Shown here: positions 17,848-36,865 of the stretch, piece by piece | Layout: every line of letters begins with the position of its first letter | Position numbering within the stretch: the stretch's first letter is position 1 | Assembly: GCA_030593565.1 (NCBI GenBank) | Contig: JAUVGW010000007.1 | Location: forward strand, 1-38,167 | DNA length: 38,167 bases | Reading direction: 5' to 3' | Source: Phycisphaerae bacterium | GTDB lineage: Bacteria > Planctomycetota > Phycisphaerae > UBA1845 > UTPLA1 | Translations under genes and position numbers: made by a program | The notes under the pieces: generated by a model | The model's input: only the letters and a program-made list of their open reading frames with translations | Told to the model about the DNA's origin: nothing | The model's database searches: none

Positions 17848-18447
17848 TTAGCCTTCATCCTTCTCTTCAATTCCCAACAGCGGCAACAGCTCTCGCAATT
17901 CGCGAATCACGTGGTCCGCCTCATCCGCCCACGCCGGAGATCCGGTTGGATTGCCCAATAGCAGGACCGTGACGGCGCCGGCAGCCGCCCCGCAGACGAT
18001 GTCGTAGTGATAGTCGCCGATCGTCCAGGTGTCACGGGGTTCGACCTCCAATGTTCGGCAAATCGAGAAAACCGGCTCCGGTGACGGCTTCATCGCTCCG
18101 TCTTCGCGCGTCCAGATCATGTCGAACGCCAGTCCGTGTCGGGTCTGAAGCGTCTCGACCGACTTGCGCGAGTTGCGTGTCATCAGGGCCGCCGGGATGC
18201 CGGATGATCGAACGGCCGCAACAACCTCCGCCGCTCCGGGCTGCAATTCGCTACGGTCGGCAGCCTCAGCTTCATGGCGTTCCAGGATCGCGTCCGCACG
18301 GCTGCGATCCGCGGGTGACATCGCGCGCATAGCTTCCAGGATCGGCGCGGAAACCCCGATCTCCTCACGGATGCGGTCAAAATCGAGCATCGGACGCGTC
18401 AGCGTCCCATCCATATCGAAGATCACTGCGGATGCGTTCAAGGCCAT
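17848..18447 (-). CDS. HAD-superfamily phosphatase, phosphoglycolate phosphatase-like
   Basis: Motif I is 'VIFDMDGTLT' (about 8-17, the nucleophile and acid-base aspartates), motif II 'ALMTRNS' (the Thr), motif III 'MKPSPEPV' (the Lys) and motif IV 'TIGDYHYDI' (the paired acids). A helical cap sits between motifs I and II, as in phosphoglycolate phosphatase-type HADs. The substrate cannot be read from the sequence. The last residues, IEEKDEG, and the stop codon come from a TTCATCC minisatellite (about 17832-17869), so the natural C-terminus may have been replaced by the repeat. The same peptide string appears in the NuoF insert. Confidence 0.9.
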   Translation of the reverse strand: MALNASAVIFDMDGTLTRPMLDFDRIREEIGVSAPILEAMRAMSPADRSRADAILERHEAEAADRSELQPGAAEVVAAVRSSGIPAALMTRNSRKSVETLQTRHGLAFDMIWTREDGAMKPSPEPVFSICRTLEVEPRDTWTIGDYHYDIVCGAAAGAVTVLLLGNPTGSPAWADEADHVIRELRELLPLLGIEEKDEG

Positions 18448-18896: not shown

Positions 18897-19583
18897 CTAC
18901 CGGCCAGCCTTCACCGCCGCCCCCCCCGTTTTCGATCCGTCTCCCTTCGACGAACCATCAGACGATGACCGGCGCCGCTTGTTCTGCGGTCGGACGATCT
19001 TGTACGCCGACTGCGTCTCCGAGTAATCCACAACGTCGGTTTGATCGAGCTTCGCCTCGCGAGCCGCCGCGTGAACGTTCGCCTTCGTGACTGTCCGGAC
19101 GGTCTTCGGCAGGACTACCCAAATCGCTCCGTCCGGGCGCAGCGTATCGCTCAGGTCCTCGAGCTGGCGAAGCTCTGCCGCCCGCTCGACGCCCAACATC
19201 ACAAGGTCGCATCGCTTGGATCCGCGCGAAACGACTTTTGTGTTTTTCGACTCGAGCGAATCAAACAGCTCGCGGTCTTCCAGATTCAGCACGCGAATCG
19301 TCTGACCATCGCACACGCCGAGTTTGTCCGCCAGCGTCTGCGGATGAAGAATATAGTCGATCCAGCGCTCGGCGGCCCGGACGGCCCCCAGCCGAATGGA
19401 TACGGGATTCCCGTGGAAATTGAATAGGATCGCATCCCCGTCGCGACTCGGATCGCGAATCTCGGTCAGGCGGAATCGGAACTTCGTCATACCAGCGAAG
19501 TCGATGTGGTCGCCCTCCATGCGGACCTTGCCTTCGTAGTGATCCCTCCCTACTTGCAGCTTGCAGGCCGACTCCATCGCCAT
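18897..19583 (-). CDS. DUF3052-like protein
   Basis: ATG 19583 is preceded by GGAAGGA at 8 bases; the frame is open further upstream but that part crosses a palindrome and lacks the family pattern. The product is 228 residues. The N-terminal part (1-75) is a small beta-rich domain ('KVRMEGDHIDFAGMTKFRFRLTEI') ending 'GNPVSIRLGAVRAAERWIDYILHP'. The C-terminal part matches DUF3052: 'LADKLGVCDGQTIRVLNL', 'KRCDLVMLGVERAAELRQLEDLSDTLRPDGAIWVVLPKTVRTVTKANVHAAAREAKL' and 'VVDYSETQSAYKIVRP'. The tail is rich in Arg, Lys, Ser and Gly. Function is unknown; the fold is thought to resemble nucleotide-binding domains. Confidence 0.85.
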   Translation of the reverse strand: MAMESACKLQVGRDHYEGKVRMEGDHIDFAGMTKFRFRLTEIRDPSRDGDAILFNFHGNPVSIRLGAVRAAERWIDYILHPQTLADKLGVCDGQTIRVLNLEDRELFDSLESKNTKVVSRGSKRCDLVMLGVERAAELRQLEDLSDTLRPDGAIWVVLPKTVRTVTKANVHAAAREAKLDQTDVVDYSETQSAYKIVRPQNKRRRSSSDGSSKGDGSKTGGAAVKAGR

Positions 19584-19742
19584 GAGCTTGGTCCTTCCAG
19601 TTCCCCCACATACCAATCGCCGACGCCACCATAGCGCCGCTATTCTGGAAACGCTGTCGCTAATGGGCTTTGCCGTCGACCCGGCCCGCGCCGAACACAA
19701 GTCACCGCAATCTGTGGTGCTCGCGCCGATATGCACGTCTTG

Positions 19743-19776
19743 GCCGCCGTCCGCGGACAATTCCGCGGACGGCGGC
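19743..19776 (-). terminator. Perfect 15-bp hairpin downstream of acetyl-CoA synthetase
   Basis: Arms GCCGCCGTCCGCGGA (19743-19757) and TCCGCGGACGGCGGC (19762-19776), loop CAAT. It is about 100 bases after the acs stop codon, in the gap before the DUF3052 gene. There is no T tract. The rest of the gap (19584-19878) holds a GTTTCCGA inverted pair near 19800-19850 and no gene. Confidence 0.45.
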
Positions 19777-19878
19777 GTGACGGTCAGTTCAAAACCCTCG
19801 GAAACGGGACCTCCCCGTCGACCCATGCTCCCGCGTTTCCGAAGGACATTGTAACACAATCCAGTCTGTGCCGAAACC

Positions 19879-21843
19879 CTACTCTTCGTCCTTTGTGTTC
19901 ATCGCGGCAATGGTTGTGAGATCTTCCAGTGTCGTGATGTCACCCTCGACGCGACCCTTTGTGGCGAGTTCACGCAACAAACGGCGCATGATCTTGCCAC
20001 TACGGGTCTTAGGTAGCGCATCCGTGAAGCGGAGGTCCTTCGGCCGAGCGATCGCGCCGATCTGCGTTGCGACGTGCTTTCGCAGTTCGTCTTTCAATCC
20101 GGCGCTCGCCTCCGAGTCTCCCTTGAGCGTCACGAACGCACAAATCGCTTCACCTGTGAGTTCGTCGGGGAATCCGACCACGGCCGCTTCCGCCACCCTC
20201 GGGTGCGAAACCAACGCGGATTCGATCTCGGCCGTGCCCATCCTGTGACCCGAAACGTTTAGTACATCGTCTACTCGACCCGTGATCCAGAAGTAGCCGT
20301 CCTCGTCGAATCTGGCGCCGTCGCCTGTGAAATACACGCCCTCGATTTCCGAGAAGTACGTCTTGATGAATCGATCCCGGTCACCGTAGATGCCGCGGAG
20401 CATCCCAGGCCACGGTTGGCGAATGACCAGCAACCCGTTGCTCCCTCGCGGAAGCACCGTGCCGTCGCGCTCCACGACAGCCGCGTCGACACCGAAGAAC
20501 GGCTGCGTTGCCGAGCCGGGCTTCGTCTCCGTCACACCCGGCAATGGCGTGATCAGAATACCGCCCGTCTCCGTCTGCCACCACGTATCCACGATCGGGC
20601 TGGTCCCGCCGCCGAGGTGCTCGTGATACCACATCCACGCTGCGGGATTGATCGGCTCGCCCACCGAGCCCAACAGTTTGATCGACGACAGGTCGTACTT
20701 GCCCGGCAACTCCTCGCCTTGCTTCATGAACGCGCGAATGGCCGTCGGCGCGGTGTAGAACTTCGTCACCTTGTATCGCTGGACTATCGCCCAGAATCGT
20801 TCCCAATCGGGATGGTTCGGCGCGCCCTCGTACATGATCGTCGTGATGCCGTTCTGTAACGGACCGTAGACAATATACGAGTGACCCGTGACCCAACCGA
20901 TGTCCGCCGTGCACCAGTACATGTCGTCCGGCTTCAGGTCGAAGACCATCTTGGCCGTGTACGCCGCGAAGACCATGTAGCCGGCCGTTGTGTGTAGAAT
21001 GCCCTTGGGCTTGCCCGTGCTGCCACTGGTGTACAGCAGGAACAGCATGTCCTCGGCGTCGCAGTGCTCGGCCTCGCAGGTGTCGGCGCAACCCTCAATC
21101 GCGTCATGCCACCAGACGTCCCGGCCGTCCTTCATCGTGATCTCGTTGCCCGTGCGCTCGTAGACGACGACCGTCTTCACCAGGTCGGTCATGCCGCACG
21201 CGTCGTCAACGTTCTTCTTGAGCGGTACGATCTTCCCACGTCGGTAACCACCGTCGGCCGTAACGATCACGGTTGATTGCGCATCTTCCAATCGGTCCAC
21301 GATCGCCTGCGCGCTGAATCCGCCGAAAATCACCGAGTGCGGCGCGCCGATGCGGGCACAGGCAAGCATCGCGATCGCCAGTTCCGGAACCATCGGCATG
21401 TACAGCGTGACTCGGTCGCCCTTCTTCACGCCCATCTTCTTCAGCGCATTGGCGAACTTGCAGACGTCGCGCAGCAAATCGTTGTAGGTGAATTTGCGAA
21501 CGTCGGTTGGCTCGCCCTTGTCATCGACGAGTTCGCCTTCCCACAGGATCGCCGTGTGGTCGCCGCGGCCCTTCTCGATCTGATAGTCGAGGCAGTTGTA
21601 GGCCACGTTTGTCTTGCCACCGACGAACCATTTCGCGTCGGGTAGATTCCACTCACGCACCTTGTCCCATTTCTTGAAGAAGTGGCAATCCGATGCGATC
21701 TCGCCCCAAAAACCCTCGGGATCCTCGATCGATCGTTTGTGCATCGCCTCATATTCCGCCACGGTCTTGACGTGTGCCTGTGCGGAAAAATCAGCAGACG
21801 GTGCGAACTTCTGCGGGACGGGTGTGCTTGAATCCGAAGCCAT
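19879..21843 (-). CDS. acs: Acetyl-CoA synthetase
   Basis: Full-length at 654 residues, matching the usual 650 or so. It activates acetate with ATP to acetyl-AMP and then acetyl-CoA in the cytoplasm. Motifs: '[21 protein letters not shown]' region (nucleotide loop), '[18 protein letters not shown]' (acetate and AMP site), '[40 protein letters not shown]' (hinge aspartate and ribose contacts) and '[14 protein letters not shown]', with the lysine that is the classic site of regulatory acetylation. ATG 21843 follows GGAGGA at 8 bases; the further upstream frame is not used. No acetyltransferase or deacetylase gene is adjacent. It stands alone, flanked by repeat-rich gaps. Confidence 0.96.
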
Positions 21844-22395
21844 ACTGTTGGTCCTCCAATGCGACAAAAAACGCTCTTGTTAAGGGTGTTGCGGGGTCAC
21901 GCGGCCACGAATACGGCGTATTGTACGCCGTTTCGGCCATGCCTGCGACGTCGTCTCCGCCCAGGCCTACGTAGGTCATCGGGCACGCACGCACCCGATC
22001 CGTGACTCCGTAATCGCCATAAGGCAAGACCGGGACCACTCGCGTCCTGGGGCCTCGCAACAGGTGCGCGACGACTTCGCCGGGACGGCCCAGGAACCCC
22101 CGAGCCAACGAGCCGGTTTGTCTCAAGCCGCTCCCGCTCGTGCAAGATTCCCATCTCGCACGCACTCCTCGCAGGATTCCAATCCTCCAGGGCTACGGGA
22201 TGGAATTCCCGTCGGAGTCGGTGCGAGAACGGATTCTCGCACCAGCAGTCAACCACCTGAATCGCCACACATCCAGTAATCCCGGCACGCCGGGGTTACC
22301 CCTTCACCCTTCACCCTTCATTTTTCATCTTTCCCCCACTCCCGGCCCCACTCAATGCTGGCACCTCGCCGCGTTGCCGGATACGATGCCCAATC
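21844..22395. repeat. 552-base gene-free stretch with a row of hairpins
   Basis: After a GAGCCGG-family element near 22105 come successive hairpins: 22140-22161 (GTGCAAGAT/ATCTCGCAC), 22173-22186 (AGGATT/AATCCT), 22195-22212 (ACGGGA/TCCCGT), 22221-22242 (GTGCGAGAA/TTCTCGCAC) and 22277-22298 (TAATCCCGGC/GCCGGGGTTA). A TTCACCC/TTCATTT minisatellite follows at about 22301-22335. Open frames on the minus strand here (for example 21897-22268) cross the hairpins and look non-coding. Confidence 0.75.
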
Positions 22396-23967
22396 ATGGA
22401 TGCGCTACAGGCCACAGCAGATTACCATAAGTTCTGTCCGGGTGAGGAAAGCGTCAAGATATCCAACGCGATCTGTCGTGGACGACGTCGCAGTCATCAC
22501 CCCAGTTGTAACGGCTGCAAGTTCAACGATGACGAGAAAGGCCGCGATCAGACCCAAACCGCGGATAAAACCGACGACGTTTCACCCGTCGAATCGCTCT
22601 TTCGGTCAAACGAAATCCGGGGCACCGTTCCTTCGCCGCTTTCGCACGACGCCGCCTGGCGAATCGGTCATGCAACCGCTCAGTACCTCCGGGGGCGACT
22701 CCGGGGTTATGACCGCGCCGACCCCAATGCCCGCAACATCATCGTCGGGCGCGACACGCGTTCACATAGCGAGGATCTCCAAGACGCCCTCGTCGAGGGC
22801 ATCCGTTCGTCCAGCCTTGACGTCATCGACATCGGTCCTGTCGACACGCCCCAGTTGTACTTCGCCGTCAACAACACGAACGCATGCGGCGGAATACAGG
22901 TCACCGCCGGCGACATGCCGCCTGACCACAACGGCTTTCTGATTTGCGGCGCGAAGGCCGCCCCGGTCACCACCGAGACGGGCCTTGTCAGCATACGTGA
23001 CATCGCCACTCGCGTGCCCCGCCACAACACCGGCAGTCAGTCCCGCCTGTCGGAAAAAGACTTCTCGGCAGCCTATGCCGAATTCGTCAGACCGTTTCTG
23101 CACCGCCGTTCACATCGGGCCGAGCGCGTGACTGTCGTGTGCGATGCCGCCAACGGAACGGCGGGGGCCTCGTTGTCCGCCATCTTCAAGGGCGCGAGGA
23201 AGCTGACCGTCGTTCCCATGGGTTTCGAGCATGATGGGCGTTTCAACCACGTCCCAAATCCGTTTGATCCGAAGAACACCCGCGAACTGCGGAAGCTCAC
23301 GAAACAACACAAGGCCGACATTGCCGTTTCCTTCAACGGAGACGCCACAAGCTGTATCTTTCTTGACGACAGGGGACTGACCGTTCGATCCGACCTTATC
23401 GCCACGCTGCTCGCCCGCATGTTCATCGAACGTTCTCCGGGCGCGGCCGTCGTTTTGGATGTCCGCTCCACGCGGGCCGCTGTCGAGGAAATCGAACGGG
23501 CCGGTGGTGTTGCCATCCTGACGCGCGTGGGACCTTCGTTCGTCAAGAAGGCAATGGCCGAACGGAACGCGGTCTTCGGCGCCGATCTTCACGGCCGTTT
23601 CTACTTTCGGGACAACTTCTATTGCGAGTCCGCCATCCTGGCGCTTGTGCACGTCCTGAACCTCATCACCGATACCGATCACCGGCTCAGTGAACTCGTT
23701 CGGTCCGTCAGCCGCTATCGCTCCACCGGCGAACTTCGATTCCACCGCCCGGACCCCGATCATGCACTCCGCGAGATCCGCGCCGCCCACGCCGATGCCC
23801 ACATTGATATGCTTGACGGGATCACGGTCACGTACCCCGATTGGTCGTTCAACGTCCGCCCCGCGGAAGCCGGCTCCTACCTTTACGCCATGGTCGAGGC
23901 GAGAACACGAAAAACCGCCGACGAATACCTGGCTCGGCTCGAGCCCCTCCTAGGCGAACGGGCCTGA
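22396..23967 (+). CDS. Phosphohexomutase-family protein with degenerate active site
   Basis: The fold is that of alpha-D-phosphohexomutases (phosphomannomutase/phosphoglucomutase): 'FRSNEIRGTVPSPLS', 'NIIVGRDTRSHSEDLQDALVEGI', 'VIDIGPVDTPQLYFAV', 'VTVVCDAANGTAG', 'HDGRFNHVPNPFDPKNTREL', and a C-terminal domain ending 'YLYAMVEA'. Length and domain order are normal. All four catalytic loops are changed: the phosphoserine loop TASHNP is TAGDMP (170-175), the metal loop DGDxDR is NGDATS (314-319), the sugar loop GGEMSGH is 'GADLHGR' (395-401) and the phosphate loop RPSxTEP is 'RPAEAGS' (488-494). It is therefore probably a non-catalytic homologue. The N-terminal 60 residues are atypical and Cys/His/Arg-containing. 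No alternative in-frame start is available near the fold. Confidence 0.85.
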   Translation: MDALQATADYHKFCPGEESVKISNAICRGRRRSHHPSCNGCKFNDDEKGRDQTQTADKTDDVSPVESLFRSNEIRGTVPSPLSHDAAWRIGHATAQYLRGRLRGYDRADPNARNIIVGRDTRSHSEDLQDALVEGIRSSSLDVIDIGPVDTPQLYFAVNNTNACGGIQVTAGDMPPDHNGFLICGAKAAPVTTETGLVSIRDIATRVPRHNTGSQSRLSEKDFSAAYAEFVRPFLHRRSHRAERVTVVCDAANGTAGASLSAIFKGARKLTVVPMGFEHDGRFNHVPNPFDPKNTRELRKLTKQHKADIAVSFNGDATSCIFLDDRGLTVRSDLIATLLARMFIERSPGAAVVLDVRSTRAAVEEIERAGGVAILTRVGPSFVKKAMAERNAVFGADLHGRFYFRDNFYCESAILALVHVLNLITDTDHRLSELVRSVSRYRSTGELRFHRPDPDHALREIRAAHADAHIDMLDGITVTYPDWSFNVRPAEAGSYLYAMVEARTRKTADEYLARLEPLLGERA

Positions 23968-24076: not shown

Positions 24077-24931
24077 ATGCATTCATTGGACGCGCCGCCC
24101 ATCTTCATCATCGGCCCGCCGCGGACGGGAACGACGCTGCTGGCGTATCGGCTTGCAGCCGGCGGCGACATCCTCGCCCTGAGCGAGTCCTTTCAGATGC
24201 GGGCGATGCTGCCCGACTGGCGGGTGCAGCGGATATTCTCCTGGTATCAGCGCCGCTTTCGCCATCGTGTTCCATGGCCGCGGCGATGCACGCCGGAGCA
24301 GCACCTCGACTGGATGCGGCAAGTGGCGACGGTCAACGATTTCGACTTCGTCATCATCAAGGAGGTGTTCCACGACATCGGCCTGAAGCCGCCGTGGTGC
24401 AACTTCGAGCTGCTCGACCGGATGACATCGGGCGACGCGCAGGTCGTTGCGATTGTGCGGCATCCGTGCGATAGCGCCGCTTCGACGATCTGGTTGTTTC
24501 GGCTGCTGCTGTTCGGGATGGTGGGTCGGCTGGCCCGGTGGCGATGGCCGACCGCGCCGCGATTCGAGAATGATGACGAGATCGTCCAATGGAGCGCGGC
24601 GAACTGGGCGCACTTCGCGGACTGGGCCCGCCGACGGCAACTGTATGTGATCCGTTACGAGGACCTCGCGAAGCAGCCCGAGGCGACGCTACGTCGCGTG
24701 TGCGATCACACAGGTCTGCCCTGGCACCCGCGAATGCTCACGCGCCGGAACAAACCACGCGCGTTCGGCGGCATCGGCGATCCCAAAACCCTTCTACACC
24801 CGTTCAGGCCAATCTCATCACGCCCCGTCGGACGCGGCAGACTCCTGACGCGCGAACAATGGGACACGGTCGAGGCCGCCTGCGGCCCCGCCGCGGCGGA
24901 GTATGGCTACGACTTCGATCGCCCCGATTGA
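24077..24931 (+). CDS. Sulfotransferase-family protein
   Basis: The 284-residue product carries the PAPS 5'-phosphosulfate loop 'IFIIGPPRTGTTLLAYRLA' near its start (about 9-27) and the 3'-phosphate motif 'AQVVAIVRHPCDSAAS' (about 121-136). Downstream come 'LYVIRYEDLAKQPEATLRRVCDHTGLPW', the usual closing of sulfotransfer_1/3 proteins, and 'WDTVEAACGPAAAEYGYDFDRP'. It should transfer sulfate from PAPS to a hydroxyl or amino acceptor; the acceptor is unknown, and glycans or lipids are typical in this family. No PAPS-synthesis gene lies nearby. It follows the phosphohexomutase homologue on the same strand by 109 bases, which hints at glycan modification. The ATG at 24077 lacks a spaced Shine-Dalgarno sequence. 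Confidence 0.85.
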   Translation: MHSLDAPPIFIIGPPRTGTTLLAYRLAAGGDILALSESFQMRAMLPDWRVQRIFSWYQRRFRHRVPWPRRCTPEQHLDWMRQVATVNDFDFVIIKEVFHDIGLKPPWCNFELLDRMTSGDAQVVAIVRHPCDSAASTIWLFRLLLFGMVGRLARWRWPTAPRFENDDEIVQWSAANWAHFADWARRRQLYVIRYEDLAKQPEATLRRVCDHTGLPWHPRMLTRRNKPRAFGGIGDPKTLLHPFRPISSRPVGRGRLLTREQWDTVEAACGPAAAEYGYDFDRPD

Positions 24932-25697: not shown

Positions 25698-28583
25698 CTA
25701 CCGCCGCATCTTCGCCATCGGCCTTTTTTTCGCGGTTGCCTTCTTCTTCGTAGCCTTGGACTTCTTGGCGACCGGTTTGCTCGGGTCCGGCTTGCGGGCG
25801 GCGGGCTTTGACTTTGCTGGCTTTGCTTTCTTCGTCGCCTTCGCGGCGGGCTTCATGACGACCGCCTGGGCCGCGGCGAGGCGGGCAATGGGGACGCGGT
25901 AGGGCGAACAACTGACGTAGTCCATTCCCAGTTCATGGCAGAAATAGACGGACTCCGGGTCGCCGCCGTGCTCGCCGCAGATGCCGATCTTCAGTTTCGG
26001 CTTTGTCTTTCGGGCGGACTGAACCGCCATGCGGACGAGCTTGCCGACGCCGGGAACGTCGATCGTCTGGAACGGATGCCCCTGAAAGATGGCCGCCTTG
26101 TTCTGATCAAGATAGGCCGGTAGGAACCGGCCCCCATCGTCACGAGACAAAGCCATGACCGTCTGTGTGAGGTCGTTGGTTCCGAAGCTGAAGAAGTCCG
26201 CCACGCCGGCCATGCTGTCGGCCGTCAAGGCCGCCCTCGGCGTTTCGATCATGGTGCCGACCAGATAGCTCAGCCGAATTCCCGCCTCCTTCAGGATTCC
26301 ATCCGCTACCTCGCGAACGCGATCCGACAGGATATCGAGTTCCTTCGCGTCGATGCAGAGCGGGATCATGATCTCGGGGGCCACCTTGACACCGCGCCGG
26401 CGGCACTCGACGGCCGCCTCGATGATCGCGCGCGTCTGCATCTCGAGAATCTCGGGGTAGGTGATCGCGAGGCGACACCCACGGTGGCCGAGCATGGGAT
26501 TGGTCTCGTGAAGCCGTTCCACACGGCTGTGGACGATCTTGAAATCGACGCCAAGGTGATCGGCGAGTTCTCGCTGCTTGTCTTCCGTGTGCGGCACGAA
26601 CTCGTGCAATGGCGGATCGACCAGCCGAACCGTGACCGGCCAGCCGGCCATGGCCTCGAAGATGCCGATGAAGTCCTGCCGCTGGAACGGCAACAGCGTA
26701 TCGAGTGCCTCGCGCCGCTCGTGTTCACTGTCCGCGAGGATCATCCTCTGAATCGCCCGCAGCCGTTCCTCGGTGTCGAAGAACATGTGCTCCGTCCGGC
26801 ACAACCCGATTCCCTGCGCGCCCATTTTCTGGGCGGTCGCGGCGTCGTGTGGGGAATCGGCATTAGTGCGGACCTTCAATCGCCGCCTGGCGTCACACCA
26901 TTTCATCAGCGTGTAGTATTCTTCCGGCAGGGTCGGCGTGACGAGGTCGATCGTGCCTTCGTAGATCGCGCCGTCCGAGCCGTCGAGTGTGATGTAATCG
27001 CCCTCCTGAAAGGTCCTCCCCTTGATCGACATCGACCTGCCCGCTTCGCTGACCCGCAAGGCCCTGCAACCGACGACGCAACACTTGCCCCAACCCCGGG
27101 CCACCACCGCCGCATGTGACGTCTTGCCGCCCGTCGCCGTCAGAACGCCTTGCGAGGCGTGCATGCCGCCAACGTCCTCGGGGCTTGTTTCCCTGCGCAC
27201 CAGGATCACTTTCAGCCCGTCCGCCGCCCAACTTTCGGCGGTCGGCGCATCGAAGACGATCTGGCCGCAGGCCGCACCGGGCACGGCGTTGATGCCGGTC
27301 CCCAGACGCCGGTCCATCAGCGATTCACGGTCTATCGACGAATCAATGATCGGGTAAAACAGCCGGTCGACATCGTCTCCGGTAATGCGCAGGATCGCCT
27401 CATCCTTGGTGATGATGGGCCGCGTGGAGGCGGCGGCATATCGCTTCGGCAGACAGCCCTTGCCCGACAGCCGTTTGGCCTCGGCCTTTGTGAGCAGCGG
27501 CTTCGTCGCATGGTCCACGGCGATCTTGAACGTCGCCCCCGGCGAGCGCTTGCCGGTCCGACATTGGAGCATGTACAGCTTGCCGCGCTCGACCGTGAAT
27601 TCGAGGTCCTGCATGTCCTTGTAGTGCATCTCGAGCATGACGCGCACGCCGCAGAGCTGGTCGTACACTTCGGGGTTCTTGTCCTTTAGTTCCACGAGCG
27701 GGATCGGCGTCCGGATGCCGGCCACTACGTCCTCGCCCTGGGCGTTCATGAGCAGGTCCCCGTAGAACACGTTTTCGCCGCTGCTCGGATCGCGCGTGAA
27801 GCAAACGCCCGTACCGCAGTCCTCGCCCATGTTCCCGAATACCATCTGTTGCACGTTTACGCCCGTACCCGGCAGGCCGTAGATCTTCTCCACCTCTCGA
27901 TACTTGACGGCCTTGTCCGCCATCCAGGATTCGAACACCGCGCTCACCGCCCCGACGAGTTGGTCCCACGGATCCTGGGGGAAATCCCCCCCGATCTCAT
28001 CGCGGAAAAACGCCTTGAAATCGTCGCACAGCTCGCGGAGGTGCGATTCAGTCAGATCGGTGTCGTTGAGCAGTCCGAGCCGCGCCTTCATCGACCCGAG
28101 TTTTTCCTCGAGGATGTCCTTCGACAGGCCCACGACCACGGTTGAATACATCTGTATAAATCGCCGGTATGAATCCCACGCGGATCGCGGGTTGCCGGTG
28201 CAGCGGGCCAGGCCCTCGACCGATCGGTCGTTCAGCCCCAGGTTCAGCACCGTCTCCATCATGCCGGGCATCGAAACGGCGCTCCCGGATCGCGTGGACA
28301 CGAGTAGCGGATCGTTCGGGTCGCCGAGCTTCTTCTTGCACGCCTTCTCCAACTTGGCGACGGCCTGCTTGACCTGCTTCGCAAGACCGGGCGGCCACTT
28401 CCGCCCGCGATCATAGAATTCCTTGCACGCCCGGGTCGTGATGGTGAAACCGGCCGGCACGGGCAGGCCGATGTTGGTCATTTCGGCCAGTCCCGCTCCC
28501 TTACCGCCTAGCAAGCTTTTCTGACGTCCCTGACCTTCCGCCTTGCCACTACTGAAGGAATAAACGAACTTCGTGGTAGTCAT
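25698..28583 (-). CDS. ppdK: Pyruvate, phosphate dikinase with basic C-terminal tail
   Basis: Reversibly makes phosphoenolpyruvate from pyruvate, ATP and phosphate. The 961 residues hold an ATP-grasp domain ('SLLGGKGAGLAEMTNIGLPVPAGFTI', 'STRSGSAVSMPGMMETVLNLGLND'), the swivelling domain with phospho-histidine in 'ATGGKTSHAAVVARGWGKCCV', and a TIM-barrel PEP/pyruvate domain ('GLCRTEHMFF', 'MLGHRGCRLAITYPEI', 'SFGTNDLTQTVMAL') ending 'KIGICGEHGGDPESVYFCHELGMDYVSCSPYRVPIARLAAAQA' with the catalytic cysteine. ATG 28583 follows GGGAG at 8 bases. The last 52 or so residues are an Ala/Lys/Pro-rich, histone-like extension ('KKAKPAKSKPAARKP') that the family does not normally have. The gene is monocistronic by appearance; no regulatory-protein gene is adjacent. 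Confidence 0.96.
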   Translation of the reverse strand: MTTTKFVYSFSSGKAEGQGRQKSLLGGKGAGLAEMTNIGLPVPAGFTITTRACKEFYDRGRKWPPGLAKQVKQAVAKLEKACKKKLGDPNDPLLVSTRSGSAVSMPGMMETVLNLGLNDRSVEGLARCTGNPRSAWDSYRRFIQMYSTVVVGLSKDILEEKLGSMKARLGLLNDTDLTESHLRELCDDFKAFFRDEIGGDFPQDPWDQLVGAVSAVFESWMADKAVKYREVEKIYGLPGTGVNVQQMVFGNMGEDCGTGVCFTRDPSSGENVFYGDLLMNAQGEDVVAGIRTPIPLVELKDKNPEVYDQLCGVRVMLEMHYKDMQDLEFTVERGKLYMLQCRTGKRSPGATFKIAVDHATKPLLTKAEAKRLSGKGCLPKRYAAASTRPIITKDEAILRITGDDVDRLFYPIIDSSIDRESLMDRRLGTGINAVPGAACGQIVFDAPTAESWAADGLKVILVRRETSPEDVGGMHASQGVLTATGGKTSHAAVVARGWGKCCVVGCRALRVSEAGRSMSIKGRTFQEGDYITLDGSDGAIYEGTIDLVTPTLPEEYYTLMKWCDARRRLKVRTNADSPHDAATAQKMGAQGIGLCRTEHMFFDTEERLRAIQRMILADSEHERREALDTLLPFQRQDFIGIFEAMAGWPVTVRLVDPPLHEFVPHTEDKQRELADHLGVDFKIVHSRVERLHETNPMLGHRGCRLAITYPEILEMQTRAIIEAAVECRRRGVKVAPEIMIPLCIDAKELDILSDRVREVADGILKEAGIRLSYLVGTMIETPRAALTADSMAGVADFFSFGTNDLTQTVMALSRDDGGRFLPAYLDQNKAAIFQGHPFQTIDVPGVGKLVRMAVQSARKTKPKLKIGICGEHGGDPESVYFCHELGMDYVSCSPYRVPIARLAAAQAVVMKPAAKATKKAKPAKSKPAARKPDPSKPVAKKSKATKKKATAKKRPMAKMRR

Positions 28584-28948
28584 GCACGCAACTCCCAATC
28601 TGCCGAGCTTATACCCAGATCAGCCCTGCCAATAACCGTTAATGTCGCAATATACGGGCGGTCATTGGGCCGTTCTTCTCGCCCGCCGACCGTTTCCGAG
28701 TCGCACCCCACCCGCGCGAAGACCTCAGACCTATCAGGAAAGGCTCTGTTTGGCAAGGTGCCGCTGGAAGATCATTCGTTGCCGGGTGTGCGTTCCCGAT
28801 TCAGCAACCCGCGACGCCAAACGTAGCGTCCCCCCCCACGCGGCCGCAATCAACCGATTCCGTCGTTTAGCCGCGACCCGCAGGGGAGCGCGTGGAAGGC
28901 GCCCTCCTCTGCGGATCGCGGCTAAACAGGACGTTGTCGCCGAAACTG
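28584..28948. repeat. Gene-free stretch with GTTTAGCCG palindromic element (28865-28927)
   Basis: The 63-base element starts GTTTAGCCGCGACCCGCAGG and ends TGCGGATCGCGGCTAAAC, inverted copies with few mismatches. Its ends match the GTTTAGC ends of the longer element at 11044-11199. The remainder holds the ppdK promoter region and no gene. Confidence 0.75.
28608..28613 (-). promoter_or_regulatory. Candidate -10 box upstream of ppdK
   Basis: TATAAG on the minus strand, 25 bases before the ppdK ATG; a weak GTTATT sits 17 bases further upstream. Tentative. Confidence 0.25.
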
Positions 28949-30652
28949 TCATGGACCCGGCCCGCCCGTGCGTTGTCGCACTGTCAGCAGGCGGTCGATA
29001 GGAATATCCCGCATGATCTGACCTTTTCCGTTCGGCCAGATGACCTCCAGACGGTCGATCTTACTGCATGCACCAAGTCCGAAATGGAGCCGGGCGTCGT
29101 GTTGTGACAGGTAGCTGCCGGCAGAAGCCCGGTGTCGGATCAGCATCCGACCGCCGAGCGTGATCTTGACGATCGCGCCGATGGCGTCCCGGTTGGGTGC
29201 ATGCCCGACGAGGCTCACCTGCAGCCAGTGCCGGCCGCGGCGGGGCGTGTCGTTTCGCAGGAGCGTCGGACGTGCGTTCAGGTTCGCGACGAGCAGGTCG
29301 ATGTCGCCATCGTTGTCGAAGTCGCCGCGCGCGACGCCGCGGCTGACGAACGCCGCGTCCGCCGTCACGTCTCGAGTGGTCGTCGGGCGACCGTCGCGCT
29401 GTGCCGAGGCGGCGGGCGCCGTCGTGACGTCCGTGAAGCCCCCGCGTCCATTGTTGATGAACAGTCCGTTCGGCTGTGCTTCGAGGAGACACGCACTGCC
29501 GTTGGCAATGTACAGATCGAGCCACGTATCAAGATCGAGGTCGGCCGTGGCAGCGCCCCAACTGTGGTAGTGAATCATATGGGCGGAGATGCCCGAACGC
29601 GTGGCGAGATCCTCGAACATGCCGTCGCCCATGTAGCGGTACAGGCAGCAGAGGTTCATGTCCGGCACGACGATATCGAAATGTCCGTCGCCGTCGTAGT
29701 CGGCGACTTCGACGGCCATCGCGGCGGTGGCGTCGCCAGTCTCTCCGTACGCGACGCCCGCGAGCAGGGCTTCATTCGCGAACGTCTCGTCTCCCTTGTT
29801 GCGGAACAGGAAGTTCTCCATGGCGTCGTTCGAGACGAAGACATCGACGAAGCCGTCATTGTCGTAGTCGATCGTGCCGACGCCCATGGCCCGACCGACG
29901 GGTTTGATCATGACCCCCGCCTCGCGTGTGACGTCGGTGAATGTGCCGTCCGGATTGCCGCGGAACAAGCGGTCCTGCTGGCCCTTGTAGGCCAACGGGC
30001 TTCGGACGCCGTCGGCGGTGTGCTTATCCTGAGGAGGCGGAACGTAGGTCAGGTAGTTGCCCACGTACAGATCGAGACGTCCGTCCTGATTGAAATCGAA
30101 GAAGACGGCACCGACGCTGAAGGCCGGGTCGTCGACGCCCGCGGCCTTTGCCACGTCGGTGAAAGTTCCGTCACCATTGTTACGGTACAGGCAATTGGGA
30201 CCGCGGTTGGTGACGTAGATGTCGGCGTCGCCGTCACCGTCGTAATCGGCGGCGACGACGGCCATGCCGTAGGCCGGTTTGGCGATGCCGGCCTTCTCCG
30301 TGACATCCTCGAATGTTCCGTCGCGACGGTTGCGGTACAGGCGGTCGGTGGCGGCGGCGAGTCGTTGTCTGGTCTTGGCGTCGAGCCCGGGATCGGACAG
30401 GCCCGGTTGCCAGCACCCGTTGACGAGGTAGATGTCGATCCACCCATCGCCATCGTAGTCCACAAACCCGCAGCCGACGCCGGTCGCCTCCACGATGTTG
30501 GACATCACGCCGTCACCGACGGTCTGGACGAAACGAATGCCGGCCGACGTCGTTACGTCGGTGAGGGAAACCGGCGGGGCGGTCTTCGGTCCGGCGACCG
30601 CGAACGACGCGAGCATGGCTGTGATCGTGAAGATGTGCGACCAAGCGAACAT
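28949..30652 (-). CDS. CRTAC1-like secreted protein with FG-GAP repeats and ASPIC/UnbV domain
   Basis: A short signal-like N-terminus ('IFTITAMLASFAVAG') is followed by 'VSLTDVTTSAGIRFVQTVGDG' and about seven FG-GAP/VCBS repeats, each with a calcium-type loop such as 'DYDGDGWIDIYLVNG', 'DYDGDGDADIYVTNRG', 'DFNQDGRLDLYVGNY' and 'DFDNDGDIDLLVANL'. The C-terminus (about 455-565) is the ASPIC/UnbV domain: 'RHWLQVSLVGHAPNRDAIGAIVKITLGGRMLIRHRASAGSYLSQ' and 'RLEVIWPNGKGQIMRDIPID'. These are extracellular calcium-binding propellers of unknown substrate. ATG 30652 is used; the TTG at 30682 lies inside a hairpin and is unlikely. Confidence 0.88.
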   Translation of the reverse strand: MFAWSHIFTITAMLASFAVAGPKTAPPVSLTDVTTSAGIRFVQTVGDGVMSNIVEATGVGCGFVDYDGDGWIDIYLVNGCWQPGLSDPGLDAKTRQRLAAATDRLYRNRRDGTFEDVTEKAGIAKPAYGMAVVAADYDGDGDADIYVTNRGPNCLYRNNGDGTFTDVAKAAGVDDPAFSVGAVFFDFNQDGRLDLYVGNYLTYVPPPQDKHTADGVRSPLAYKGQQDRLFRGNPDGTFTDVTREAGVMIKPVGRAMGVGTIDYDNDGFVDVFVSNDAMENFLFRNKGDETFANEALLAGVAYGETGDATAAMAVEVADYDGDGHFDIVVPDMNLCCLYRYMGDGMFEDLATRSGISAHMIHYHSWGAATADLDLDTWLDLYIANGSACLLEAQPNGLFINNGRGGFTDVTTAPAASAQRDGRPTTTRDVTADAAFVSRGVARGDFDNDGDIDLLVANLNARPTLLRNDTPRRGRHWLQVSLVGHAPNRDAIGAIVKITLGGRMLIRHRASAGSYLSQHDARLHFGLGACSKIDRLEVIWPNGKGQIMRDIPIDRLLTVRQRTGGPGP

Positions 30653-30992
30653 GTGGGTATCCAATGCGGCCTTCGGCCGCAAGTAAAGGGTTTAGGGTCT
30701 AGGGTTCAGGGTCTAGGGTTTTCAGTCCGTACCATTGACCCTGAACCCTAGACCCTAACCCCTTCAATTTTGCCGTCGGTTTTCGACGTGTCGGCGTTTT
30801 GACGTTTTGACGTTTCGACGTTTCGATGTTTCGTCCTCGGCTTTCTCCGTACCGCCAATCCTCGATTCCCAATCGTCAATCGTCAATCTTCAATCTTCAG
30901 TCGCCACCCTCCCCGCACGGCAATCGACCTTTACAAGAACCCGGCCCTGCGGTATGTAAGCGATGGTTGCACCACCGGAGGCGCAAACTGAC
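30653..30992. repeat. Composite of four short tandem-repeat families
   Basis: In order: hairpin GCGGCCTTCGGCCGC (30666-30680); a telomere-like inverted pair, TAGGGTCTAGGGTTCAGGGT near 30691 and ACCCTGAACCCTAGACCCTA near 30737; GTTTTGAC/GTTTCGAC 8-base units (about 30795-30832); and AATCGTC/AATCTTC 7-base units (about 30867-30902). No gene is seen, and the maf Shine-Dalgarno sequence is at the right end. Confidence 0.8.
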
Positions 30993-34886: not shown

Positions 34887-35930
34887 TTAGCGTCGCTTTC
34901 GGATGACGACTGCGAGGCCGACTCCCAACAGGCACAGGGTCGCCGGTTCGGGCACGCCTTGGTACAGGTGAACCTCGCCGCAGCCTGCGCCGTACAGGAC
35001 ATCCAGATAGCCGTCGCCGGTCCAGTCGGTGATGAATGGTCGGGATCGTGGCGTGCCAGCGTGGTCGATCGGGACGCCTTCGGATTCGACGTAGACAAAG
35101 TCATCGAAACTCGGATCGGCGTCGGTCCCGGTATTGGCGTAGAACAGTAGCTCGCCGTTGGTGTTGCCGGTGAGGAGGTCTTTCCTGCCATCGCCGTCCA
35201 GGTCGAGGATGACCGGGCTGGAGCGGATACTGGGAACGACGAGATCACTCCCGCCGGCCTGTGCGAAGAAACTGGTGAGAAAATCCGGGGCTGCGTCCGT
35301 TCCTTCATTGAGAAAGACTTGGATATTGCCGGAGAGCCCCCCCGAGACGAGGTCTTTCCTGCCGTCGTTGTTCCAATCAACCATGGAAGCCGTCGCGCGG
35401 TATCCGATGTCGATATCGACCTTGGAACCCGGCTCTCCGACTTGCAGGAACACGCCCGCGTCGAACGTGGGAGCGGCTTCGGTCCCGATGTTCCCATACA
35501 ATTTGATCATGCCGTCGGCGCGACCGACGAGCAGGTCCTTCATGCCGTCTCCGTCCCAGTAGACCGTGCGGGGAAACAGCCCCATGCAGCCGCTACCGGT
35601 TTCTATCAGATCGGAACCGACGGACTGCGCGTAGAATGAACCGGAGAACTGGGGGGCTCCGGCGGTTCCTGTGTTGAGGTAGACCCCCACCTTGGCACTC
35701 GGGCTGCCGCCACTGCCCTCGCCGACGATAAGGTCCATCAAGCCATCGTCGTTCCAGTCAACGAACGAAGGCACCGAATAGCCCGGCACGGTAATATCGA
35801 GGCCGGCGCTTTGGACCAGTTGCCCCGGTCCAAGGTTGAGCTGTCCCATCGCCGGTGTGGCTGCTACGAGCAGGCAGGCCGCGACCAATGCGACAGCGGA
35901 CGAACGGACAGTCAGTATCCTGGAATTCAT
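34887..35930 (-). CDS. Secreted FG-GAP protein with PEP-CTERM sorting signal
   Basis: ATG 35930 follows GGGGAG at 6 bases; the frame upstream is not used. A signal peptide 'AVALVAACLLVAATPAMG' leads a 347-residue protein with five FG-GAP-like blades: 'FVDWNDDGLMDLIVGEG', 'YWDGDGMKDLLVGRADG', 'VDWNNDGRKDLVSGG', 'DLDGDGRKDLLTGN' and 'DWTGDGYLDVLYGAG'. The last 22 residues are the PEP-CTERM signal, 'VPEPATLCLLGVGLAVVIRKRR', recognised and cut by exosortase and used for surface anchoring; no exosortase gene is in the window. The blades carry D-x-D-G type loops that bind calcium in related proteins. No enzyme function is seen. Confidence 0.92.
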   Translation of the reverse strand: MNSRILTVRSSAVALVAACLLVAATPAMGQLNLGPGQLVQSAGLDITVPGYSVPSFVDWNDDGLMDLIVGEGSGGSPSAKVGVYLNTGTAGAPQFSGSFYAQSVGSDLIETGSGCMGLFPRTVYWDGDGMKDLLVGRADGMIKLYGNIGTEAAPTFDAGVFLQVGEPGSKVDIDIGYRATASMVDWNNDGRKDLVSGGLSGNIQVFLNEGTDAAPDFLTSFFAQAGGSDLVVPSIRSSPVILDLDGDGRKDLLTGNTNGELLFYANTGTDADPSFDDFVYVESEGVPIDHAGTPRSRPFITDWTGDGYLDVLYGAGCGEVHLYQGVPEPATLCLLGVGLAVVIRKRR

Positions 35931-36115
35931 GCTTATCTCCCCTTCCCGGCGCACCATCATCCATTCCCGAACTGTTCTGGAATCACCACATTCTACCATC
36001 GAAGGCCGAGACATGTCAAGAATCAATGGTGGGGGAAATCGGGGTGTTCCACGCAAAATGGGGCGCCATGCGGCCCCGACACCGGCATTCTCGGAGCGTC
36101 CGGTCGGCCACCCAG

Positions 36116-36865
36116 TCACCCCTGACGAATAGGCTCGTTCGCCGCGCGATCGCGAAGATCAATTCGCCACGCGTCGCGTACGCAATGTTCGACAATCTCG
36201 GCCGCGAGATTCACCCATCGCCCGCACCGATCGAGTATCCACGAATCACTGGTTGCGACCGGGCCGTCACACGCGGCCAGGACGGGATCGGGGTTGTCGA
36301 CAAGCTCGATCCGCCAGCGGATCGGACTGTCTGTCAGGGTTCGGGTCATCATGCTTCGGAGTCGCCCGCTGTTCGAGACCGGGCGGTCGAGATAGAAGAC
36401 GAGATCGCTGACGCCGGCGTCGCGGAGGTGATGGTCAATCAGACCAACGGCTGGCAAGGTCTCCTCGACGTTTCGGTATGTCCCGTGGACGCTGGCCAGA
36501 TCTCGACAGCAGCCGTCACGGCCGATGAAAAGGACGCCGCCCGACAAGGCGCTTTCCACAGTGATCAACAGATTATAGCCGTCGATACCGAGGGGCCGAT
36601 CGAGCCCATCCGCGAGGTCAACCCGTGATTCGCACCGTCGCGCCAAGGCCTGATCGGAGCACGTCGAACGTCGCACCGCCATGCGTTGTCGCTGCGTCAA
36701 ATCGTGGCGATTCCCCACGAGAGCCAGCGCGGATTCCTCGGCATAGCCGCGGGTGAGCAGCCAGGCGTATTCATGGACGGCCGACCGCAACACTTGGTGC
36801 GTTCTTTCATCAAACAGCCGGTGATCATCCGGGTGGGGGCCGCGATGTTTGCGTTTGTCAGGCAT
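36116..36865 (-). CDS. DUF434/DUF5616 protein
   Basis: The N-terminal part (about 10-70) matches DUF434: 'GPHPDDHRLFDERTHQVLRSAVHEYAWLLTRGYAEESALALVGNRHDLTQRQRMAVRRSTCS'. The rest matches DUF5616: 'LGIDGYNLLITVESALSGGVLFIGRDGCCRDLASVHGTYRNV', 'LIDHHLRDAGVSDLVFYLDRPVSNSGRL' and a C-terminal region rich in acidic residues. Strands preceding 'D' residues (IDGYNLL, YLDRPVS) are consistent with a PIN-like or other nuclease fold, but this is a guess. It is a conserved protein of unknown function in archaea and bacteria. The neighbouring genes give no clue. ATG 36865 lacks a clear Shine-Dalgarno sequence. Confidence 0.82.
   Translation of the reverse strand: MPDKRKHRGPHPDDHRLFDERTHQVLRSAVHEYAWLLTRGYAEESALALVGNRHDLTQRQRMAVRRSTCSDQALARRCESRVDLADGLDRPLGIDGYNLLITVESALSGGVLFIGRDGCCRDLASVHGTYRNVEETLPAVGLIDHHLRDAGVSDLVFYLDRPVSNSGRLRSMMTRTLTDSPIRWRIELVDNPDPVLAACDGPVATSDSWILDRCGRWVNLAAEIVEHCVRDAWRIDLRDRAANEPIRQG

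Follow-up and report, generated by a model that had tools for sequence, protein, structure and literature searches.

A protein that keeps the fold of an enzyme but has lost its active site may come from a decaying gene or may be a pseudoenzyme maintained for another task, and this question arises for a phosphohexomutase homologue encoded by a Phycisphaerae bacterium. The window, that is the whole stretch of DNA that was analysed, comprises 38,167 nucleotides of contig JAUVGW010000007.1 and carries the gene on its forward strand, where an ATG start codon opens a reading frame with exact boundaries at 22396 and 23967. A first-pass annotation had read the product as a homologue of retained length and fold that had lost all four catalytic loops and was kept by selection. 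The gene and its parts are as follows:

22396-23967, + strand: coding sequence of the pseudo-phosphohexomutase, 523 aa (ORF calling, Pfam, AlphaFold2, Foldseek)
22423-22536, + strand: N-terminal C4 module, residues 10-47, with conserved Cys14, Cys27, Cys38 and Cys41
22597-22980, + strand: PGM_PMM domain I, about residues 68-195 (Pfam)
22903-22920, + strand: former phosphoserine loop TAGDMP (T170-P175), Ser replaced by Gly172 (column mapping)
23335-23352, + strand: former metal loop NGDATS (N314-S319), D316 being the sole Asp left of three (column mapping)
23578-23598, + strand: former sugar loop GADLHGR (G395-R401), Glu replaced by Asp397 and His by Arg401 (column mapping)
23857-23877, + strand: former phosphate-binding loop RPAEAGS (R488-S494), only R488 kept (column mapping)

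Fold and full length are indeed retained. The 523-residue protein matches PGM_PMM domains I, II and III above the Pfam cut-offs (E = 4e-23, 6e-12 and 1e-15), and its AlphaFold2 model, built from 53 orthologues, reached a mean pLDDT of 91.6. The top PDB match of this model in Foldseek was the phosphoglucomutase (PGM) of Xanthomonas citri (5bmn; TMt 0.93, 30% identity). The three domains and the four-domain fold place the protein in the alpha-D-phosphohexomutase superfamily, and the same fold is found in AlgC of P. aeruginosa (1k35), identity to these enzymes being about 30% over 460 columns. Unlike them, the window protein has all four loops altered and carries an extra N-terminal C4 module.

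The loops and contact residues of X. citri PGM were defined previously (PMC6443537), and 17 active-site residues were mapped onto this enzyme by alignment column. The window protein retains three of them, R75, D316 and R488, and R357, the equivalent of X. citri R280, also survives. In the translated frame the four loops read exactly as first annotated. Where an active PMM/PGM has TASHN with its Ser nucleophile, the protein has TAGDM with Gly172; the three Asp of the metal loop are N314, D316 and T318, and D397 and H399 occupy the places of the sugar-loop Glu and Ser. In the phosphate loop, characterized by Arg, Ser, Asn, Thr and Arg, R488 is kept and is followed by A490, E491, A492 and Y497. 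To speak of the loss of all four catalytic loops is therefore fair, even though D316, R488 and R357 survive singly, since three of 17 residues are left whereas intact members of the order are canonical throughout. From these residues the window protein is predicted to lack mutase activity.

The extent of the loss was followed in 114 genomes of this order of uncultured planctomycetes, 84 of which have an orthologue, and all 84 were aligned. Every alignable catalytic residue is canonical in 58 of them, namely 55 that are so at all 17 positions and three that are partial; the other 26 are altered. In the family of the window (f1), the gene is present in 16 of 17 genomes and altered in 14 of these 16, the copies of G010 and G011 being intact, and each altered orthologue bears 9-14 substitutions among the 17 residues. 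In trees built without the loop columns, the 14 altered copies, spread over 11 genera, formed a single clade (support 99) beside G010 and G011 and nested among intact mutases. The closest relatives might have been expected to show TASHNP and DGDADR had the decay been recent and local, but the two nearest to the window protein (55% and 54% identity) are altered as well and the intact G010 comes at 50%. Local decay or sequencing error was ruled out, as the loss is common to 14 genomes with intact frames. An ancient paralogue masking an active orthologue was likewise rejected, the altered f1 proteins nesting beside the intact ones of the same family. There is one C4-mutase per genome, with the exception of G004, in which an altered f1 copy is accompanied by an intact one that lies on a contig of 3.1 kb and is nearest to family f7 (L071, L090); this second copy may stem from transfer or contamination.

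Strong alterations were also found outside f1, in families f5 (G020, G030, G048, G051), f8 (G040 and G393, together) and f2 (G028). G040 and G048 retain the Ser while other catalytic residues are lost. A single clade of all 21 strongly altered copies was rejected (p-AU 4.6e-6), and parsimony needs six changes for alteration across the order. The M16 peptidase pair that follows intact copies also follows five of the scattered altered ones (G020, G028, G030, G040, G051), four of which adjoin the same TolC-like gene; this synteny supports their orthology. Degrees of alteration vary, G028 and G393 each keeping 13 of the 17 residues and G057 and G060 keeping 16. In G028 (L112) the phosphoserine Ser is a Thr while most other residues are kept, and its protein could, judging from these residues, represent an early stage or else work through a phosphothreonine. 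In G033, G045, G057 and G060 (L105, L114, L117, L118), all of which have the second mutase PgcA described below, the changes are confined to the phosphate loop, with Asn replaced by Ile and, in two of them, Ser by Thr, which perhaps reflects an altered specificity or an intermediate step.

Outside f1, two M16 peptidase genes lie a short way downstream of the C4-mutase gene at loci L083-L122 (G017, G020, G023, G028, G030, G034, G036, G040, G046, G051 and others). In the examples read, the HxxEH motif is absent in the first peptidase and present in the second, and upstream of the mutase there is often a divergent TolC-like gene.

That the altered protein is under selection is indicated by several measures. 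None of the 14 altered f1 frames contains a stop codon. As the dN/dS comparison proposed for close relatives, two close altered pairs gave 0.053 (G006/G014) and 0.155 (G002/G013), both well below 1; wider altered pairs gave about 0.21-0.24 and comparison pairs, mostly intact, 0.036-0.23. Conservation was then assessed over those columns in which 55 intact sequences agree to at least 95%. At these columns, mean retention of the consensus by altered f1 proteins was 0.94 for the C4 module, 0.74 for the mutase body outside its loops and 0.32 for the 17 catalytic residues (p = 3e-6 for catalytic residues versus the rest), so that the loss is concentrated in the active site. Five derived residues (G172, H356, D397, R401 and E411) each occur in at least 11 of the 14 altered f1 proteins, and such fixed or nearly fixed changes are unlike the outcome of random decay. 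With catalytic residues lost in one clade under purifying selection and frames intact, the proposal of a pseudoenzyme rather than a decaying gene holds. The mutase domains of altered copies are nonetheless more divergent (mean pairwise identity 0.49) than those of an order-wide intact sample (0.60), and the gene was lost in one f1 genome, G015, and is thus dispensable at least once.

The part of the protein that is best conserved in the altered clade is one that the first-pass annotation had overlooked. The N-terminal module comprises 38 residues with the motif CPGEE-x8-C-x-GRR...PxC-x2-C-x-FNDDE and the cysteine spacing CX12CX10CX2C. No orthologue sequence that includes the N-terminus lacks it, and its four cysteines are invariant in the 14 altered f1 proteins, in 55 intact ones and in 15 orthologues of families f56 and f84, which lie elsewhere in the phylum. 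With all four cysteines and their fusion to a mutase, the window protein belongs to these C4-module phosphohexomutases. All 15 modules of f56 and f84 are likewise fused to mutases, which are catalytically canonical except that two carry a single Asn substitution; a C4 module joined to an intact mutase is therefore likely the ancestral state. No Pfam match was obtained for the module at E up to 10 and no fold match in the PDB, the isolated model being of low confidence (pLDDT 67), although the region reached about 80-88 within the full-length AlphaFold2 model. By Pfam and by PDB fold, the latter from this low-confidence model, it does not qualify as a zinc ribbon or other known metal-binding domain, and the conservation of its cysteines suggests that it may bind metal. 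A search for free-standing C4 modules returned none that was convincing (best other match E 0.002). As read by eye at the f56 loci (L129-L143), the C4-mutase adjoins an NAD-dependent sugar-nucleotide epimerase-like gene and one whose small FMN-reductase-like product contains a cluster of cysteines.

An active-looking paralogue, which had been suggested as something to look for elsewhere in the genome, was found on contig C152. This PgcA-like mutase of 596 aa has intact loops (TASHNP, DPDADR, GAEES, SGTEP); it belongs to the same superfamily, is a distant paralogue of the window protein (23% identity over part) and has no C4 module. Across the 84 genomes, PgcA accompanies 21 of 26 altered copies versus 3 of 58 intact ones. 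The raw Fisher p of 3e-12 overlooks that the tree shows only about three origins of PgcA, so that the association amounts to about three independent events, a number at which the independent-pairs sign test of PgcA versus loss is without power. Altered copies were found without PgcA in G003 (92% complete) and in G004, G028, G048 and G054 (at most 80%), and PgcA is present beside an intact C4-mutase in G026, G036 and G039. In the enlarged order sample, the sole new PgcA-bearing genome, G393, is also altered at catalytic residues.

The genes upstream of the pseudo-mutase gene are partly conserved in f1:

19879-21867, - strand: acetate-CoA ligase (acs, acetyl-CoA synthetase), divergently oriented and near the gene in 9 of the 14 altered f1 genomes
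18897-19859, - strand: DUF3052-like protein behind acs, in the same nine genomes
17848-18447, - strand: HAD-family hydrolase of the same neighbourhood, in five genomes

In eight of these nine genomes acs stands directly head-to-head with the altered gene, and it is not found near the intact copies of G010 and G011. A shared operator between the two genes was rejected, as no shared motif of their intergenic regions rose above shuffled sequence. The acs/pseudo-mutase intergenic region of the window contains a perfect 10-bp inverted repeat at 22220-22243 (GGTGCGAGAA/TTCTCGCACC, with a 4-base loop), which is not shared with relatives. Downstream, the sulfotransferase described as following on the same strand is present at 24077-24931 (+), but its place next to the gene is incidental; a partnership was rejected, as no homologue occurs near any of 55 related genes.

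The account that we regard as rather probable is that of a bifunctional ancestor whose catalysis was taken over and whose descendant was kept as a pseudoenzyme for the function of the C4 module. The ancestor would have been a catalytically competent PMM/PGM with the four-cysteine module at its N-terminus. After the genome had gained a PgcA-like hexomutase able to cover the reaction, the active site would have been lost in an ancestor shared by 14 of the 17 known f1 species, with several further such losses in other lineages of the order. Retention of the folded protein would be due to a second, non-catalytic job, in which the C4 module most likely binds metal and contacts a partner, protein or nucleic acid, and the inert mutase body may act as a scaffold or ligand sensor. 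This second job, like the sequence of events, is what we infer, and the altered protein is now probably a non-catalytic regulator or scaffold.

Another reading places the function in the old sugar pocket, which would have been rebuilt for another small molecule and another reaction, so that the new residues and not the C4 module alone would be functional. Four of the derived residues, H356 (next to R357), D397, R401 and E411, do lie in or near that pocket, D397 and R401 being common to 12 of the 14 altered f1 proteins. Moreover, R357 is kept in 13 of 14 and R488 in 12 of 14, and a DGDADR metal loop is still present in G001 and G012. Such a neofunctionalised enzyme or ligand-binder nevertheless appears unlikely, as the metal loop (DGDAAR, DSSEER, DASAER, SPDGSQ and NGDATS within the clade) and the phosphate loop vary, unlike one conserved new active site. 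Slow decay, in which the function is gone, the gene degenerates and the frames are intact by chance, would agree with the greater divergence of the altered domains and the loss in G015. It is very improbable in view of the stop-free frames, the kept C4 module and the high-confidence fold, and dN/dS of 0.05-0.24 largely refutes it.

The divergent acs gene raises the idea of a regulator whose C4 module would bind DNA and whose mutase body would sense a sugar phosphate. Its position in altered f1 genomes and its absence near G010 and G011 speak for this, but the missing intergenic motif leaves regulation of acs only a rival idea, and an improbable one: other altered copies have other neighbours (the M16 peptidase pair, the TolC-like gene), and the phosphate-binding loop that sensing would need is lost. 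A residual or altered mutase activity using substrate-borne phosphate (glucose-1,6-bisphosphate) can hardly be credited for the window protein. Its fold is intact, and the copies that keep most residues (G028, G393, G057, G060) may be active; the window protein, however, has lost the nucleophile, two of the three metal Asp, both sugar-loop residues (Glu and Ser) and almost all of its phosphate contacts.

Pseudoenzymes usually occur as duplicates beside an active copy. In the open-access literature, only PGM5-type eukaryotic precedents were found. Vertebrate PGM5 (aciculin) is a phosphohexomutase relative without mutase activity that is retained as a structural protein and keeps the phosphoserine, the metal loop and substrate binding (PMC7761743). 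It offers a precedent for an inactive phosphohexomutase that is kept; however, PGM5 is a gene duplicate, whereas the altered f1 copies are orthologues in which the loss is more complete, affecting nucleophile, metal, sugar and phosphate contact residues, and recurrent. The complexes of GlmM with the c-di-AMP cyclase CdaA (7olh, 9g69), structural matches of the model, show that another enzyme can bind to a protein of mutase fold, which thus provides a surface for interaction, but GlmM is an enzyme, unlike the putative pseudoenzyme here, and the likeness is one of fold.

The order thus mixes mostly intact orthologues with an altered family and scattered altered lineages, which makes enzyme and pseudoenzyme comparable one to one; takeover by the second mutase is a candidate cause of the loss and the C4 module a candidate site of the retained function. 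The chances seem evenly balanced that this is an undescribed pseudo-phosphohexomutase lineage in which repeated loss of catalysis in orthologues exposes an older function of an undescribed C4 module. If so, the retention of the module predicts that the intact, ordinary-looking enzymes moonlight.

Farther downstream in the window, beyond a CAAX-protease-like gene, a large PEP-utilising enzyme of the PPDK or PEP synthase type is encoded at 25698-28598 (-). FG-GAP proteins were also observed at 28949-30682 and 34887-36119; an ASPIC/UnbV domain is present in one of them and a PEP-CTERM sorting motif in one.
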